From NCBI GenBank assembly GCA_030611765.1, contig JAUWPE010000003.1:1-47677 (forward strand): DNA of 47,677 nt, in the 5' to 3' direction. The translations under genes and the position numbers were made by a program. Position 1 is the stretch's first letter. Each line of letters opens with the position of its first letter. The stretch is from Candidatus Cloacimonadota bacterium. Its GTDB lineage: Bacteria; Cloacimonadota; Cloacimonadia; JGIOTU-2. This document shows positions 10,597 to 42,195 of this stretch, piece by piece. Below the pieces are notes generated by a model, which worked only from the letters and a program-made list of their open reading frames with translations, was not told where the DNA came from and did not search any database.

Positions 10597-11037
10597 ATGA
10601 ACACAAAGAAGTCATTTAAAACCAACGTGACCACCGAGTACACTGAGAAAATAGAAAGAGACTCTTTCACTGAGAAAATTATTGGCTGTGCAATAGAGGT
10701 ACATAGAAATCTCGGACCTGGGTTGCTTGAATCGACATATAAACAATGCTTAGCAAGGGAGCTGTCAACTCATAATATTAAATTCTTTTTGGAACATCCT
10801 ATACCAGTCAATTATAAAGGGATCCATTTAGAATGCGGATATAGAATTGATATTTTATGTGTAAGCAGTGAGCAAAATCGTAAAGTCATCTTGGAATTGA
10901 AATCTATAGAAGAAATTATTAATATTCACAGAGCTCAATTGCTTACTTATATGAAACTTGCCAATATTGATACAGGTTTATTAATGAATTTCAATGTAAA
11001 ACAATTAAAAGATGGAATTGAAAGATTTAAGTTTTAA
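10597..11037 (+). CDS. GxxExxY protein (PD-(D/E)XK nuclease-like), copy 1
   Basis: The 146-residue protein has the motif GLLESTY (GxxExxY), the preceding AIEVHRNLGPG, and a nuclease-like core with RIDILC followed by VILELKS, matching the D...ExK pattern of the PD-(D/E)XK superfamily. The biological role of the family is unknown. The first 25-30 codons are not family core. They are encoded by DNA resembling the intergenic CCACAGAGNNCACAGAGAA repeat (10627-10660). A complementary, inverted copy of that repeat follows directly after the stop (11039-11100), so the gene is bracketed by inverted repeats. No clear Shine-Dalgarno precedes ATG 10597. Confidence 0.88.
   Translation: MNTKKSFKTNVTTEYTEKIERDSFTEKIIGCAIEVHRNLGPGLLESTYKQCLARELSTHNIKFFLEHPIPVNYKGIHLECGYRIDILCVSSEQNRKVILELKSIEEIINIHRAQLLTYMKLANIDTGLLMNFNVKQLKDGIERFKF
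10627..10662 (+). repeat. CCACAGAG-family repeat read as coding N-terminus
   Basis: The sequence around ACCACCGAGTACACTGAGAA resembles the intergenic repeats at 39266-39296 (ACCACAGAGGGCACAGAGA) and 39589-39615. Here it is in frame and encodes the variable N-terminal residues of the GxxExxY protein. Confidence 0.5.
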
Positions 11038-16648: not shown

Positions 16649-17560
16649 CTACAATAAATAATTTTAACCACGAAAAACACGAAAATCACGAAAGAGTTTT
16701 TTAAGAAAAATATTTCATTAAATTTCATTTTATTTATTATGTGTTTTTTTTATTCATGAATTAACTCTATTAAAAATCCAGAACACGTTTTTTCATATAC
16801 TTCAAAAAATCGTACACTGAATTGAATTATTCTTTTCTTCAAAATAATTTACGTCTAACATAATTTGTATTAATTGTCATTCAAATGCTATCTTTATTTT
16901 TATTACATTATCATAAATAATTTTAACCACGAAAAACACGAAAAGCACGAAAGAGTTTTTTAAGAAAAATAGTCTATAAAACTTCATTTTATTTATTATG
17001 TGTTTTTTCTATTCATGAATTAACTCTATTAAAAATACAGAACACATTTTTTCATATACTTCAAAAAATCGTACACTGAATTGAGTTATTCTTTTCTTTC
17101 AAAATAATTTACGTCTAACATAATTTGTATTAATTGTCCTTCAAATGCTATCTTTATTTTTATTACATTATCATAAATAATTTTAACCACGAAAAACACG
17201 AAAATCACGAAAGAGTTTTTTAAGAAAAATATTTCATTAAATTTCATTTGATTTATTATATGTTTTTTTTATTCATGAATTAACTCTATTAAAAATCCAG
17301 AACACATTTTTTCATATACTTCAAAAAATCGTACACTGAATTGAGTTATTCTTTTCTTCAAAATAATTTACGTCTAACATAATTTGTATTAATTTTTCTT
17401 CAAATGCTATCTTTATTTTTATTACATTATCATAAATACTTTTAACCATGAAAGTGGTGTTTAAAAAAAATATTCTTAAAAACTTCATTTAATTTTTCGC
17501 GTTTTTCGTGCCTTTCGCCTGCAACGGCGTAGCGTAGTGAAGATGTGTGGTTCAAAATAT
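16649..17560. repeat. Tandem array of a ~260 bp unit (three copies plus a degenerate fourth end)
   Basis: The marker TTTTAACCACGAAAAACACG starts at 16662, 16921 and 17181, and a decayed form (TTTTAACCATGAAAG) starts at 17440. The period is 259-260 bp. The units are nearly identical, with scattered substitutions and one-base indels. Each unit contains an ACCACGAAAAACACGAAA box, then AT-rich DNA with TTCATGAATTAACTC, ATCGTACACTGAATTG and TTTACGTCTAACATAATTTG. Near the right end (17498-17550) the box reappears inverted (TTTTTCGTGCCTTTCG...TGTGGTTC), split by a GCCTGC-type mini-insert (17517-17547). No coding frame runs through it. The array fills the gap between etfB and the sugar-nucleotide gene. 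Confidence 0.9.
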
Positions 17561-26325: not shown

Positions 26326-26895
26326 TTATTCAAATAATTTCCTGTCTTCCTCATACTTTTCATCTGAATAAACTTCCATCATCTTTGAATATTCCAACGG
26401 TGTTAGATCAAACCAATCCCATACCTCATTGCAAAATAACTTCCCTTTTCGTTTACCAATCCATTCAAGACAATTTGAGTAGATCCAGTCCTCCGGTCTT
26501 TTAACAAGATTTGATTTCACTGGATTGAAATGGATATACAGGCATAATCTGATAAAATATTTTTCTGTTGCTACTATTTTGTGTTGCAAAGGACTTCGAA
26601 ACAATGTTCCTTTTCTGCTATATTTGTGATTGTAATATAAAGTATACCCCGAAAATATATCGTTAAAGATTTTGTATATGGGCACATCACTATCTTGCCG
26701 GATGAAGAAGTGATAGTGATTCGGCATTAAACAATAAGAAAATATCGTTGCGGGATATAATAGTATTTTCTGTTTAAACTTACTGATAACTCTGAGATAG
26801 TCATTTTTTTTACGGAAAAGATTTTGGTGCTCAACCGCGTGATTGTATATATGGAAACAACTTCCTTTAATAAAATTTTCTTTCTTTACTCTCAT
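26326..26895 (-). CDS. REP-associated tyrosine transposase (Y1/HUH family, RAYT-like)
   Basis: The 189-residue protein shows an N-terminal GSCFHIYNHA strand and the HUH metal motif MPNHYHFF (His60, His62). The catalytic tyrosine is most likely Tyr120 in FIRLCLYIHFNPVK, followed by the family-typical NPVK and a WxxSN-like motif (DWIYSNCLEWIG). Such enzymes cut and join single-stranded DNA at palindromic repeats. The gene is closely bracketed by two ~80 bp copies of the CACGAGTCGG double hairpin in direct orientation (26238-26319 and 26920-27000), as in REP/RAYT elements. It looks intact. A truncated relative lies at 19981-20157. Confidence 0.93.
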   Translation of the reverse strand: MRVKKENFIKGSCFHIYNHAVEHQNLFRKKNDYLRVISKFKQKILLYPATIFSYCLMPNHYHFFIRQDSDVPIYKIFNDIFSGYTLYYNHKYSRKGTLFRSPLQHKIVATEKYFIRLCLYIHFNPVKSNLVKRPEDWIYSNCLEWIGKRKGKLFCNEVWDWFDLTPLEYSKMMEVYSDEKYEEDRKLFE

Positions 26896-27419: not shown

Positions 27420-28094
27420 TTAATTATGAAGAAAATCTTGGGATGGCTCAATCAGCTCAGGATAATTATTAGCCGGTGAATTTACATCCATTGAGACCTC
27501 ATAATAATCGAGATCATGTTCCTGGTAGGGAATGAGCAACTGTTTCAATGCTTTCGTATCAGAATTATTTAACCATAAAGAAAAGTTGTTTTCGGAAAGA
27601 ATGACAGGCATTCGAGGGTGGATATTTCTCAGACTTTTAATCGCATCTATAGTAATTATGCTGCACGAAGTAATCTTATCACCATCCGGAGATTTCCAAT
27701 TATCATAAATACCTGCAAAGCAAAAGGGCTTGTTGTCCTTCAAATGAATGAAATAGGGGAATTTGTTAGATCCGCGTTTCTGCCATTCATAAAAGCCGTT
27801 TGCAACTATAAGGCATCTTCTTTTCTGAAATGAGTATTTAAAGCTTGGTTTTTCATCAATTGTTTCTGCGCGTGCATTGATGAGTTTGGAACCAATTGAA
27901 ATATCCTTTGCCCAAAAGGGGATCAATCCCCAACGCATGGCAGTTAGTACTGAGCTTCCATTTTCAATGATGACTGCAACATCCTGAGTGGGAGCGATAT
28001 TATAGCTTGGCCCGAGCTCGATCTCAATTTGATCGAGATTAAATATTTCCATTATCTCTTTTGCAGTATTTATTCGAGCAAATCTTCCGCACAT
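27420..28094 (-). CDS. yedK: SRAP-domain protein (YedK/HMCES type, abasic-site shield)
   Basis: SRAP proteins form a thiazolidine crosslink between Cys2 and abasic sites in single-stranded DNA, protecting them during replication. The 224-residue protein begins MCGRF, so Cys2 is present. It also has NIAPTQ, MRWGLIPFWAKD, the INARAET motif, Glu in NGFYEWQ, and the active-site His in IHPRMPVIL. It starts 2 nt after the umuC stop codon, so the two are translated from one message and are likely induced together on DNA damage. Confidence 0.96.
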   Translation of the reverse strand: MCGRFARINTAKEIMEIFNLDQIEIELGPSYNIAPTQDVAVIIENGSSVLTAMRWGLIPFWAKDISIGSKLINARAETIDEKPSFKYSFQKRRCLIVANGFYEWQKRGSNKFPYFIHLKDNKPFCFAGIYDNWKSPDGDKITSCSIITIDAIKSLRNIHPRMPVILSENNFSLWLNNSDTKALKQLLIPYQEHDLDYYEVSMDVNSPANNYPELIEPSQDFLHN

Positions 28095-28096
28095 TG

Positions 28097-29392
28097 TTAC
28101 TCCTTTTCGTCATCTGTTTTCACCACGAGGATCTGGTCCCATTGCGTGGTGAAATGAGGGGATTTGTGCATACGCTTCATCATCCATGGCTTTTTAATAC
28201 CAGTTGCTGCGTAGTGCAGTGTATCGCTTCCCCATTTCTCATTGATGTTGTCTATGATATGTGTCAGTTTTCGGTTTCTGCTGTGGAAATAGGATTCTGT
28301 GAAAAGATTGAGCTGGTACTTACCCTGCTCAACAATTCCGCTAAGCATCACACCTGCTTTTTTGTAGCGGTACCCTTCTCTGAATATTTTTTTTAGATTT
28401 TCATGAGCGTGGGAAATGAATTCCGCAGTACTATCTGTAGCTTCCGGCAGTTCAAACATATAAGCATTTGAATATTGAGGTTCCTTTGGCCTGAACCGAT
28501 TTGTCGCCACAAAAACCTGAACGAAAGAGGCAAGGCATTTCTGTTTTCTGAGTTTTTCAGCAGCAGTTGTTACATATGTCGCCACCGCCTCCTCCAGTTC
28601 TTCAAGAGTCTCAACAGGTCGTCCAAAAGAGCATGAGCTTACGATCTCTTTTTTGTGTGGAGTAACTTCTTCAAGATTTATCGAGGGAGTTCCCCTTAGT
28701 TCAAAAACTGTGGCAAGTCCCATGACCGTCATATTCTTTTTCACCCATTTATCAGGTGCATATTTGAGATCATAAGCCGTGTGAAAATTATTACGTTTAA
28801 GCAGTTTTTCATATTGCCATCCCACCCCCCAGATGTCTGATACATCTACCTGTTTCAGGAATTCATCTATCTCATGCTCGCAGAAGGATGTGATGTCGAA
28901 CACTCCATTATACTTATTTGATTTTTTTGCAAAACGGTTTGCGATCTTTGCCAGAGTTTTTGTCTCTGCAATGCCAATTGAGACAGGAATCCCTGTCCAG
29001 TTCGTAACTGTGTTTTTGATTCTCCAACCATATTTAGTCAGGTCTCGATCTGCAAAACCTGTCAGATCAAGAAAAGCTTCATCGATTGAGTAAATTTCTA
29101 AATCGGGACTGAATTGCTCCAGGGTTTGCATCACACGATGCGACATGTCGCCATAAAGGGTATAGTTGGATGAGAATACATAGATGTTATGTTTCTTAAT
29201 AAGATGCTCTGCTTCGAAAACCGGTTTGCCAAAAGGCATACCCAAAGCTTTAGCTTCGTTAGAGCGAGCGACTACACAACCGTCATTATTCGAAAGCACG
29301 ATGATGGGTTTGCCCTCAAGCTCAGGTCTGAATACACGCTCGCAGGAAGCATAGAAATTATTGCAATCAACAAGGGCGACGATGTTTTTCAT
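28097..29392 (-). CDS. umuC: DNA polymerase V catalytic subunit UmuC (Y family)
   Basis: UmuC is an error-prone Y-family polymerase that copies past lesions. The 431-residue protein from ATG 29392 starts [21 protein letters not shown]. It shows [29 protein letters not shown], the catalytic [43 protein letters not shown] (helix-hairpin-helix) and the little-finger domain. An upstream GTG (29407) would add five residues that fall inside repeat DNA. No clear Shine-Dalgarno is left at its 5' end, which borders the repeat cassette at 29397. It is normally next to umuD; here 745 bp with a GxxExxY gene separate them. Confidence 0.96.
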
Positions 29393-29396
29393 GTAA

Positions 29397-29640
29397 GAAT
29401 AGAACACTCAAGAATAGCACGCAGATGAACACAGATTGAGCAGATTTGCGCAGATGAATATTTAGTATATATTTTCTTTTTCATTTTCATTTTACATTTC
29501 TTAATCAGTGTTTATCAGCATCATCAGCGAAAATCTGCGTTCTATTCTCTTTATAATAGCACGCAGATGAACGCAGATTGAGCAGATGTTCGCGGATAAA
29601 ATTCTTCATATTACTTTATTTCATTTACTTCGTTAATTCA
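29397..29640. repeat. CGCAGAT / ATCTGCG repeats, left flank of the GxxExxY cassette
   Basis: Several copies occur in both orientations: GCACGCAGATGAACACAGATTG (29418-29439 region), ATCAGCGAAAATCTGCGTTC (29523-29542), and GCACGCAGATGAACGCAGATTG with TTCGCGGAT (29560-29598). The last CATCAGCGTTTAT runs over the stop codon of the GxxExxY gene. The block begins immediately upstream of the umuC start. Confidence 0.85.
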
Positions 29641-30042
29641 TCAGCGTTTATATGTAATCCACTGCTTAGTCGTATTTGAATAGATCTTTCTCCTAACTTC
29701 AGGCTTATTGCCGAAATTAAGTATCAGTCCTACTTCATATTCAGTTGCCTTTAGATAGTTTATTAATTGAGTTTCATTTTCTGGAATTAGAAATTTGTTA
29801 GCTTTGAGTTCAATTATAACCTTATTTTCAACAACTAAATCAGCATAATATTCTCCAACTATACTTTCTTTATAAAACACTTGAATTCGTTTCTGAGATT
29901 CAACAGAAAAATTCTTCATCTCAAGTTCAAATTTTAACGAATTCTCATAAACTTTTTCAAGAAAACCGTAACCTAAAGTATTATACACTTTATAGAAACA
30001 GTTAATGATCTTATCAGTTAAATCTGAGTATTTATATTCCAT
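29641..30042 (-). CDS. GxxExxY protein (PD-(D/E)XK nuclease-like), copy 2
   Basis: The 133-residue protein is a second GxxExxY member: LGYGFLEKVYENSL holds G-x-x-E-x-x-Y, and YYADLVVENKVIIELKA supplies the D...ExK nuclease-like core. ATEYEVGLILNFG is the typical last strand. It is only distantly similar to copy 1 (10597-11037). It lies on the same strand as umuD and umuC, exactly between them, and is flanked by CGCAGAT-family repeats on both sides. The left repeat overlaps its stop codon. The function is unknown, but the context suggests that gene and repeats arrived as a unit. Confidence 0.9.
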   Translation of the reverse strand: MEYKYSDLTDKIINCFYKVYNTLGYGFLEKVYENSLKFELEMKNFSVESQKRIQVFYKESIVGEYYADLVVENKVIIELKANKFLIPENETQLINYLKATEYEVGLILNFGNKPEVRRKIYSNTTKQWITYKR

Positions 30043-30074
30043 ATTTAATTAATATTTTTGTTTTTCATTTTCAT

Positions 30075-30136
30075 TTTTTCTTTTCTTAATCAGTGTTTAT
30101 CCGTTTCATCAGCGTTAATCTGTGTTCCATTCTTTC
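30075..30136. repeat. CAGTGTTTATC / ATCTGTGTTC repeats, right flank of the GxxExxY cassette
   Basis: TTAATCAGTGTTTATCCG and CATCAGCGTTAATCTGTGTTCC belong to the family at 39.68-39.81 and 42.07-42.20 kb. The block ends at 30136, directly against the umuD stop codon (30137-30139). Confidence 0.8.
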
Positions 30137-30607
30137 TTACACAGGTTTATGGATAACATAGGTGACAACACCCCAGATGTGAAAATCCATATTGGGAGTG
30201 ATCTCGATAGGTGAAAAATTAATATTTCCAGATTGTAAAAAGAGTCTGTCCTCATCATACTGAATCCTTTTAACGGTCAGTTCGCCATTTACTGCTGCGA
30301 TAACTATCTTATGCTTCTCGGCTTGAACTGCTCTATCGACAATGAGAATATCTCCTGAATGTATCCCGGCATCGATCATGGAATCACCTTCCACGCGTAC
30401 AAAAAAAGTGGCTGCAGGGTGTTTAATAAGGAATTTGTTCAGATCAAGTGTGGATTCGATATAATCACTTGCAGGGGAGGGAAATCCGGCTTTGATCTCC
30501 GATTTGTACATTGGCAGTTCGAGTTCAATACCTTCTTCATAGCTCATTATCTTCGCGATGCCCTTTCCTCTTTTTAAAGGACGGATATGATTATCATTTT
30601 TATTCAT
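30137..30607 (-). CDS. umuD: UmuD/LexA-family autoprotease (S24)
   Basis: UmuD cleaves itself on RecA filaments to give the processivity partner of Pol V. From ATG 30607 it has 156 residues. The cleavage site Ala40-Gly41 lies in EIKAGFPSPA, catalytic Ser76 in RVEGDSMIDAG, and Lys113 in NGELTVKRI. The N-terminal arm has no helix-turn-helix of normal LexA size, so UmuD is preferred. The TTG at 30628 is an alternative start. The gene overlaps the yggS end by 8 nt (ATGAATAA) and is thus translationally coupled to it. Confidence 0.93.
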   Translation of the reverse strand: MNKNDNHIRPLKRGKGIAKIMSYEEGIELELPMYKSEIKAGFPSPASDYIESTLDLNKFLIKHPAATFFVRVEGDSMIDAGIHSGDILIVDRAVQAEKHKIVIAAVNGELTVKRIQYDEDRLFLQSGNINFSPIEITPNMDFHIWGVVTYVIHKPV

Positions 30608-31271
30608 ATTTACAAGCTCTTTCTCCAAATAATTTGGTGCCTACTCGAATGACATTTGCACCTTCTTCAATCGCTACTTTATAGGAATTGCTCATGCCCA
30701 TGGAAAGGTATTTCATATCAACATGAGGGATTTGAAGGCTTTTTATATGATCAAATATTCTTCGTGTTTCCACAAAGTAGGGACGTGCATCTTCAGGATC
30801 ACCGGTAAAGGGTCCCATAGTCATGAGTCCAAGTAGTTTTGTATGTGAAAGAGGAGCGATTTCTCTTACAAGATTCTCCACATCTTCGGGCATCACGCCA
30901 TTCTTTTGTGGTTCGCGTCCGCTGTTCACTTCAATAAGTATGGACATTATTTTGTTGTTCAGTTTAGCATATTTATCGATCTTACGTGCGAGTTTAGCAG
31001 AATCAACAGTTTCGATCATGTCAAAGATCGGCACGACCTGCACGACTTTATTGCTCTGCAAATGCCCGATGAAATGCCATTGAGCTTTTTTACCAACAGA
31101 TTCATAAACCGTGAGGGCTTCCTGCACATAATTTTCACCGATTTTGGATATTCCTGCATCAAGCACTTCAAGAATTTCATCTGCTGTTCTTGTCTTTGCA
31201 GCTGCAACGACCTCGACTCCTTCCGGTACTTCGGAAAGCAAACGTTTCACATTCTCAGTTATTTTTCCCAT
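30600..31271 (-). CDS. yggS: PLP homeostasis protein YggS (PROSC/YlmE family)
   Basis: YggS-family proteins bind pyridoxal phosphate and buffer its level, with no known enzymatic reaction. The 223-residue protein shows AAAKTRTADEI with the PLP lysine, IGENYVQEA, WHFIGHLQSNKV, VNSGREPQKNG, GLMTMGPF, the LSMGMSNSY signature and VRVGTKLFGER. It is the first gene of an unusual run, yggS-umuD-(GxxExxY)-umuC-yedK. It overlaps umuD, so the vitamin B6 protein and the lesion-bypass polymerase parts would be made from one message. Confidence 0.96.
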   Translation of the reverse strand: MGKITENVKRLLSEVPEGVEVVAAAKTRTADEILEVLDAGISKIGENYVQEALTVYESVGKKAQWHFIGHLQSNKVVQVVPIFDMIETVDSAKLARKIDKYAKLNNKIMSILIEVNSGREPQKNGVMPEDVENLVREIAPLSHTKLLGLMTMGPFTGDPEDARPYFVETRRIFDHIKSLQIPHVDMKYLSMGMSNSYKVAIEEGANVIRVGTKLFGERACKYE

Positions 31272-39191: not shown

Positions 39192-39906
39192 TTTTTGGGA
39201 GAAAATAAATCAAATAAAATCTTAACCACGAAAAACACGAAAAAACACGAAAAAATAAATTTAAACAACCACAGAGGGCACAGAGAAACACAGAGATAAA
39301 AATAACCGAGAAGAAAAGCGAAGAGAGAAGAGCGAGGAAAGAATAAAAATCACGATCCGTCTTCATATCAACTATCGGGACGACGCTGTGGCAAGCCAGT
39401 CTTAGTTTCACTACTCTGTGATAAAACGGCGTAACATGCAGGTAGAGGAATTTTCGACTTGTGACAAGATAATTCCAAATAAAAAAGGGCATGTCATTCC
39501 CGTGAAAACGGGAATCCAGTTTATTAATAACAGCACGCAGATAAACGCAGATTGGGCAGATTTTGGCAGATATATATTGAATATTTTTAACCACAGAGAG
39601 CACAGAGAACACAGAGGAATTATCAAGTTAAAATTTTAAATATAATCAGTATTCCTTCTTTGCAGGATTTCACGGGGTAAATCAGTTTCATCAGCGTTAA
39701 TCTGTGTTCTATTCTTTTCAGATCCCCGAGTCATTCCCTTCGTGGCTGACTCGTGAAACGCAACACATGTTTATCAGCTTCATCAGCGTTTATCTGCGTT
39801 CTATTCTCTATTTTTAGCTCTTCGCGAATATTTGTCTTGACAGCTTTCTGAACAGATATTCCATTCATCACGAAGTTAAAAACTTAGCTTCGTAAAGAGA
39901 GGTAAA
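39192..39906. repeat. 715 bp repeat-packed spacer upstream of the beta-helix gene
   Basis: No gene is supported. In order it contains: ACCACGAAAAACACGAAAAAACACG (39224-39256); ACCACAGAGGGCACAGAGA (39269-39296); a TGTCATTCCCGTG/GGGAATCCAG hairpin (39492-39520); GCACGCAGATAAACGCAGATTG (39532-39553); ACCACAGAGAGCACAGAGAAC (39590-39612); and the left copy of the 156 bp repeat (39652-39807). TTGACA follows at 39837-39842, a possible -35 box for the next gene. Confidence 0.75.
39652..39807 (+). repeat. 156 bp direct repeat, left copy
   Basis: This copy is about 95% identical to 42040-42195. It contains TTTCACGGGGTAAATCAG, CAGCGTTAATCTGTGTTC, a CGAGTCA/TGACTCG hairpin (39726-39756) and CAGCGTTTATCTGCGTTC. 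The two copies lie in the same orientation, one on each side of the beta-helix gene. Confidence 0.9.
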
Positions 39907-41917: not shown

Positions 41918-42011
41918 AAATGGGACGTAGATATACGCAGATTCAGCGGATTTTCGCAGATAAAGAATTAAATTTATTTTTCATCATTATATTTTCTGAA
42001 TCAGTGTTCAT

Positions 42012-42064
42012 CCTGTGAAATAATCCCGATGCATCGGGATTCCTGCTTTGCAGGATTTCACGGG
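42012..42064 (+). repeat. Three-way-junction palindrome
   Basis: The outer stem CCTGTGAAAT (42012-42021) pairs with ATTTCACGGG (42055-42064), with one G-T pair. Inside are two adjacent hairpins without unpaired bases between them: a perfect 20 bp palindrome centred on GATGCATC (42022-42041), and CCTGC-TTT-GCAGG (42042-42054). The other copy of the flanking repeat, at 39.65 kb, lacks the left half. Confidence 0.85.
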
Positions 42065-42195
42065 GTAAATCAGTTTCCTCAGCGTTAATCTGTGTTCTAT
42101 TCTTTTCAGATCCCCGAGTCATTCCCTTCGTGGCTGACTCGTGAAACGCAACACATGTTTATCAGCCTCATCTGCGATTATCTGCGTTCTATTCT
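42040..42195 (+). repeat. 156 bp direct repeat, right copy
   Basis: This is collinear with 39652-39807, with a few substitutions (for example TTTCCTCAGCG for TTTCATCAGCG). It lies between the beta-helix gene and rnhA. Confidence 0.9.

Follow-up and report, generated by a model that had tools for sequence, protein, structure and literature searches.

The unit that parts umuD from umuC in this stretch of DNA is probably (at a rough probability of 0.62) a minimal mobile element, in which a predicted Cas4/RecB-fold nuclease of the GxxExxY family would read the repeats that bracket its own gene. Four observations at the sequence level support this reading: inverted arms bracket the gene, the two arms of one unit change in concert, residues of the protein follow the letters of the repeats, and the same sites are occupied in some genomes and empty in others. 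The GxxExxY family is common but has no known function, and the repeats are conspicuous and unexplained in many environmental genomes. If the arms are read by the protein, this would provide a function for the family and a source for the repeats, together with a set of nuclease-site pairs whose code would be open to single-residue exchange.

The umuD-umuC junction and its history

The window, i.e., the whole stretch of DNA analyzed here, comprises 47,677 nucleotides from a Candidatus Cloacimonadota bacterium. The gap between umuD and umuC is 744 bp (29393-30136) and contains two tandem inverted-repeat units, of which unit A carries a GxxExxY gene and unit B is empty (Table 1). This confirmed the original prediction that the two genes are parted by repeats and a GxxExxY gene, and also that a repeat overlaps the end of that gene, since its TGA stop falls within a CGCTGAT word. 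The product exceeded the cut-offs of both family profiles, i.e., TIGR04256 (35 bits) and PF13366 (22 bits), and thus belongs to the GxxExxY/PDDEXK_3 family. Unit B resembled the arms of unit A over 82 nt at 78% identity and over 46 nt at 89% identity. The heptamer CGCAGAT occurred 19 times in the window when 4.5 copies were expected, and none of 100 shuffles contained as many; the proposed CGCAGAT repeat family is therefore enriched, although it is one of many flavours that a more general site can take. The SRAP/YedK-type gene lies directly downstream of umuC, forming a umuD-umuC-SRAP cluster. The Y1 transposase-like gene lies 1.2 kb past the end of umuC, and scored 61.5 bits with NF047646 (below the cut-off of 80) and just over the cut-off with PF01797.

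Table 1. Features of the window discussed in the text
Feature	Position	Strand	Remarks
GxxExxY cassette, second in window	10597..11037	(+)	directly after tgt; residue 21 is R; arms of CACCGAG/CACTGAG/CACAGAG flavour
Three tandem CACGAAA arrays	16666..17512	none	about 259 bp apart; apparent GxxExxY reading-frame remnants between, by eye against L007
REP-associated Y1 transposase-like gene	26326..26895	(-)	
SRAP/YedK-type gene	27420..28094	(-)	
umuC	28097..29392	(-)	ATG at 29392; downstream operon neighbour of cassette; NF002955, 436 bits
Unit B	about 29413..29548	(-)	gene-less inverted-repeat unit in tandem with unit A; flavour as unit A
Unit A	about 29555-30132		arms enclosing the GxxExxY ORF
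Unit A, 3' arm	29555..29600	(+)	AATAGCACGCAGATGAACGCAGATTGAGCAGATGTTCGCGGAT
GxxExxY PD-(D/E)XK nuclease gene	29641..30042	(-)	133 aa; TIGR04256, 132 bits; PF13366, 138 bits
Unit A, 5' arm	30086..30132	(-)	GAATGGAACACAGATTAACGCTGATGAAACGGATAAACACTGAT
umuD	30137..30628	(-)	upstream operon neighbour of cassette; NF007621, 167 bits; PF00717
Intergenic stretch	39227-39798		nested CACGAAA, CACAGAG and CGCAGAT arrays; site took several flavours
Gene-less unit	39536..39798	none	CRCAGAT flavour; CACAGAG and CACGAAA arrays inside or beside it
Gene-less unit	41936..42186	none	CRCAGAT flavour

Nothing separates umuD from umuC in L068 and L070, which represent two other genera of the family; the site is empty there, which supports an insertion into the operon as originally proposed. 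By contrast, the junction spans 290-420 bp in three relatives from the same genus as the window genome (G001, G007 and G005) and contains two gene-less units, whose flavour is that seen in the window; in G001 there is an additional nested CACTAAG/CACAAAG unit. Gene-less units equivalent to unit B were seen in L064, L065 and L066. Among the same-genus relatives compared, only the window genome has a GxxExxY gene at this position. Since these relatives contain two gene-less units, the gene was either added to one unit, the arrays at umuD-umuC then being older than the gene, or it has been lost from the relatives. The empty-site comparison came out as anticipated in the other genera but not within the genus, and the suggestion that gene and repeats had been inserted as a whole needs correction, in that the repeats appear to have come first. 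No target-site duplication was evident in the A-rich and diverged flanks of either this site or the Flavobacterium site described below, nor did we find a fixed target sequence.

The other cassette of the window, which follows tgt, was present in G000 and G007, but only internally deleted remains were present in G002 and G004; there was a deletion in G001 and no cassette in G005. Given this patchy retention and decay, the cassette is dispensable. The window genome contains 11 GxxExxY matches, and only two of these genes have CGCAGAT arms; most of the others have arms of other flavours, i.e., CACAGAG, CACGAAA or CACAAAA, which were always inverted where both flanks were covered. Five similar GxxExxY genes with CGCAGAT-type arms, apparently tandem duplications, lie within a 34-kb stretch of a contig of G017 (C1:793844-827837).

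Bracketing arms and their letters

Genes of the GxxExxY family were present in 65 of 99 sampled genomes of the phylum, with up to 16 matches per genome. Bracketing was scored by aligning the upstream flank of each gene with the reverse complement of its downstream flank, using a threshold of 26; the 99th percentile of the background was 25 for shuffled sequences and 24 for random geometry in the window. Over 113 loci of the phylum the median arm score was 29 for true pairs of flanks versus 16 for mismatched pairs, and 70 of the 113 loci were above the 99th percentile of the shuffles. Inverted arms (score of 26 or more) bracketed 251 of the 332 GxxExxY genes that had full flanks, so that the proposed tie between these genes and repeats is supported well beyond this locus. 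The background in repeat-rich contigs is not zero, the threshold having been passed by 3 of 21 control ORFs. In a wider sample, made up of a genome-contig search plus named or held-out genomes, the same bracketing was seen in Bacteroidota, Ignavibacteria, Cyanobacteria, Verrucomicrobiota, a planctomycete, SAR324 and archaea. The count of GxxExxY genes flanked by CGCAGAT repeats, proposed as a check, therefore gave a divided answer: bracketing is general, but the literal CGCAGAT word does not define it, each protein clade having its own flavour. GxxExxY was named in 2 of 5.39 million papers searched and PF13366/PDDEXK_3 in one, and we found there no description of GxxExxY genes with bracketing repeats; the enclosure of a nuclease gene by what would be its own recognition sites may be a general kind of element, apparently undescribed.

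An arm typically consists of three copies of a 7-bp site, C-p1-C-N-p4-A-p6, repeated every 8-10 bp. The outermost site was preceded by C in 56% of cases, versus 8% for inner sites. The letters at p1, p4 and p6 vary from one cassette to the next, yet both arms of any one cassette share them, just as the two ends of a transposon agree with each other. Within a cassette the arms disagreed at 9% of site positions, whereas the figure was 43% for the spacers and 44% for position 3, which is free within the site. Because the arms agree at the sites and differ at the spacers and position 3, the letters of the site, rather than base pairing of the arms, are under constraint; we rejected a base-paired stem as the conserved feature for the same reason. 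The flavour of the arms followed protein identity both between genera (r = 0.41) and between families (r = 0.30), with p ≤ 0.0005.

A predicted nuclease fold and residue-letter covariation

There were no sequence relatives of the window protein in the PDB at E ≤ 1, and we therefore compared folds. The solved structures closest to the model (pLDDT 93) were Cas4 SSO0001 (4ic1, E = 2e-4), an LHK/lambda-type exonuclease, MGME1 and Hjc. The active-site residues of the window protein are E29, D68, E78, K80, Q92 and Y96; in 221 proteins of the family E29, Y32, D68 and K80 were invariant, E78 was present in 220 and Q92 was nearly invariant. The predicted model and the conserved residues correspond to a RecB/Cas4-type PD-(D/E)XK fold with its catalytic D, ExK and QxxxY motifs, and the best reading is that the window protein is a predicted nuclease of this Cas4/RecB type. 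Cas4 itself reads a short motif, the PAM. Unlike Cas4, the GxxExxY protein is only 133 residues long, has one cysteine, lies away from cas genes and has arrays around its own gene; a Cas4 iron-sulphur site, which needs four cysteines, was excluded by the single one. A GxxExxY domain has been reported where another tool called cas4 (PMC8934634).

Across 74 representatives, residue 21 was the strongest covariate of p6. In the training data N21 was accompanied by T at p6 in 27 of 27 cases and D21 by C in 5 of 5, while K or R21 went mostly with G or A. At p4, G was found with T9 in 29 of 30 cases and with R13 in 13 of 13, and A with V13 in 34 of 36. The corresponding candidate specificity residues in the window protein are T9, I13 and N21. 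We then had a held-out set of 126 proteins, 75 of them with a called site, from the phyla of L219 (a Verrucomicrobiota sequence) and of Methanoperedens. Here T at p6 accompanied N21 in 18/18 cases (base rate 23/75) and G or A accompanied K/R21 in 42/43; at p4 the agreement was 32/32 for T9 with G, and 8/12 for V13 with A.

A pairwise "both differ" test was uninformative, K21 being accompanied by several letters, and tree-based and within-genome tests were used instead. There were 171 agreements out of 184 between residues and letters, compared with a mean of 125.6 and a maximum of 150 when sites were shuffled within genomes. On a tree built without the tested columns, N21 was acquired on 11 occasions, and in every one of them the background was T (3.8 expected), although parsimony on a 100-residue tree is noisy; the K/R21 rule for G or A, taken alone, was not significant on the tree. 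When 352 residue states were scanned, N21 ranked first for T at p6, E10 first and T9 second for G at p4, and V13 first for A. All four of these residues lie on helix 1 (residues 6-23; model pLDDT 93), and no clear reader residue emerged for p1. The pairings are chemically sensible, i.e., Asn for a T:A pair, Lys or Arg for purines and Asp for C. With this covariation in hand, we consider it very likely that the GxxExxY protein binds the DNA of the arms directly.

Arrays also occur without the gene. In one genus of the phylum (G022, G029 and G064) there were 21-28 CACGGAT arrays per genome; G022 has one GxxExxY gene, with arms CACGAATT, and no GxxExxY gene was detected in G029 or G064, which have 22 and 21 arrays, respectively. 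Arrays, which form dispersed extragenic inverted-repeat units, can thus outlive the gene, and their persistence does not require a nuclease today. Such gene-free arrays, the apparent precedence of the arrays over the gene at umuD-umuC, and the REP-like Y1 transposase gene near the end of umuC would also be expected if the arrays were an independent repeat family, spread for example by REP-type transposases, in which GxxExxY genes merely lodge, the covariation reflecting joint inheritance. We regard this as quite improbable, because flavours differ among the GxxExxY genes of a single genome, each gene having the flavour that matches its own residues, because N21 was gained repeatedly in T backgrounds, and because held-out phyla follow the rules.

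Gain, loss and likeness to known systems

One intergenic site in Flavobacterium was empty in four genomes (G144, G170, G124 and G140), contained a GxxExxY cassette with CATATAAG arms in others (including G109, G165, G139, G160 and G126), and in yet others contained gene-less hairpins of ATATAAG, CATTAAG or CACGAATT flavour. This amounts to insertion, with different flavours having taken a single site. A homing endonuclease recognizes the empty site that its element splits; here the covarying letters lie in the arms and the empty Flavobacterium sites have no such array, which speaks against an element of that kind. Transcription terminators were judged unlikely by eye, the 3' arm in the Flavobacterium units being followed in the sense direction by A rather than T.

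Of the 128 GxxExxY genes examined for orientation in the first data set, 122 lay in the sense of both neighbors, an orientation that was weaker in the held-out, GC-rich set (36 of 49, by a cruder count). Cassettes were found in many kinds of operon, including those of tgt, the SUF cluster and polysaccharide genes, which carry them as often as SOS operons do. The idea that the family benefits from SOS-linked expression was not supported by this distribution, and we rejected an SOS-specific role, SOS linkage not being a property of the family. The same neighbors bear on whether the nuclease serves the host, e.g., in defence or repair, the arrays then acting as processing signals or as marks of self. 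The RecB/Cas4 fold, and umuD, umuC and the SRAP gene as neighbors in the window, are what such a service would lead one to expect; we nevertheless hold it to be very improbable, as neighbors elsewhere are unrelated to repair and the cassette is freely gained, decayed and lost.

Another alternative is that binding to the arms serves local regulation, or lets the protein control its own expression or copy number, rather than movement. The residue-letter rules require only binding, and the cassettes, which lie in untranslated leaders, are read together with the host operon. Against this, catalytic residues are kept in all or nearly all of the 221 proteins; moreover, gene-less arms of the same flavours are found at many sites, and the Flavobacterium site has seen three flavours replace one another, a pattern more in keeping with mobility than with local regulation. 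We therefore think regulation unlikely to be the explanation.

On the preferred reading, i.e., a mobile cassette with its own nuclease, the element would consist of two inward-pointing inverted arms with about three 7-bp sites each (here CRCNGAT), one per helical turn, with residues 9, 10, 13 and 21 of helix 1 reading p4 and p6. The GxxExxY gene would be transcribed with the host operon, with which it has no visible business; such transcription would account for the sense orientation and for placement between a stop and a start codon. The nuclease would bind the arms and cut there or close by, after which the unit would be copied or moved by repair or rejoining. Gene-less copies with the same arms may be non-autonomous relatives, travelling as passengers, or deletion products, and nuclease and arms would evolve together as do a transposase and its ends. 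From the sequence patterns described above we infer that the protein binds DNA directly, that it cuts in or close to the arms, and that the unit spreads via cutting and repair; cutting at the arms we consider probable, and mobility driven by the GxxExxY enzyme itself somewhat better than an even chance.

A second, unrelated family is arranged in the same manner. Genes for four-helix-bundle proteins (TIGR02436) were present in 48 of 59 genomes, with up to 33 matches in each, and 24 of the 29 scored (loci L337-L365; L012-L030) were bracketed by inverted periodic arrays of other motifs, such as GGTGTTAGGTGTTAGG and GAGGTCGAGAGGTC. Bracketing alone would therefore need no nuclease, and the two classes look alike in plan, with a different protein and motif in each. 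An ORF of the four-helix-bundle kind, S23p, is also found in the Coxiella 23S rRNA intervening sequence, together with a terminal stem of 28 bp and tandem GACAGAT heptamers (PMC4990558). Such intervening sequences resemble the GxxExxY cassette in their inverted arms, single small ORF, nearby tandem heptamers, tolerance in transcribed places and selfish appearance (PMC4990558); the cassette differs in lying outside rRNA (at umuD-umuC), in its unrelated protein (TIGR04256), and in that its site letters rather than its pairing are constrained. These likenesses, the similar anatomy of the four-helix-bundle genes of the phylum and the prevailing sense orientation would fit a cassette that acts as RNA, with the arms pairing, RNase III removing the loop and the ORF a passenger. 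However, although the arms are partly complementary, as a terminal stem cut by RNase III would be, the spacers and site position 3 are unpaired between them, the protein is a predicted PD-(D/E)XK nuclease with residue-letter rules, and Rfam gave no meaningful match for the cassette. We judge the RNA explanation improbable.

Three other systems invite comparison. Like REPINs and their RAYT genes (PMC3116915, PMC8266576), the cassettes are short extragenic inverted-repeat units in many copies, with a single nuclease-like gene tied to its own flavour, protein-repeat co-evolution, and gene-less copies outnumbering gene-bearing ones. RAYT is, however, a Y1/HUH single-strand transposase, whereas GxxExxY is a PD-(D/E)XK protein, and its arrays of 7-bp sites bracket their own gene, with dozens of flavours across phyla. 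With insertion sequences and MITEs the cassette shares terminal inverted repeats, non-autonomous gene-less copies and empty sites, but its unit lacks a DDE or HUH transposase, we saw no duplication of the target, and the ends are arrays of sites. The Beggiatoaceae TAACTGA repeats (PMC4679880) are likewise abundant intergenic heptamers with an unknown binding protein, but they are direct repeats and have no linked nuclease gene.

More broadly, and tentatively, GxxExxY proteins could be a large class of compact (about 130 residues) sequence-specific nucleases with a one-helix recognition code, which together with their arrays would make up widespread mobile elements of bacteria and some archaea, the four-helix-bundle cassettes being a parallel class with different motifs. 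Relatives of the protein were found on 8 of 72,556 plasmids and on none of 50,697 phages. This rarity suggests that most of the spread takes place within chromosomes, or else through routes that were not picked up here. The closest plasmid relative (62% identity) was on a Fusobacteria plasmid, pZRK30-1 (L503, CP102406.1); it has N21 and arms of CACGGAT/CACAGAT, in agreement with the residue-letter rule.
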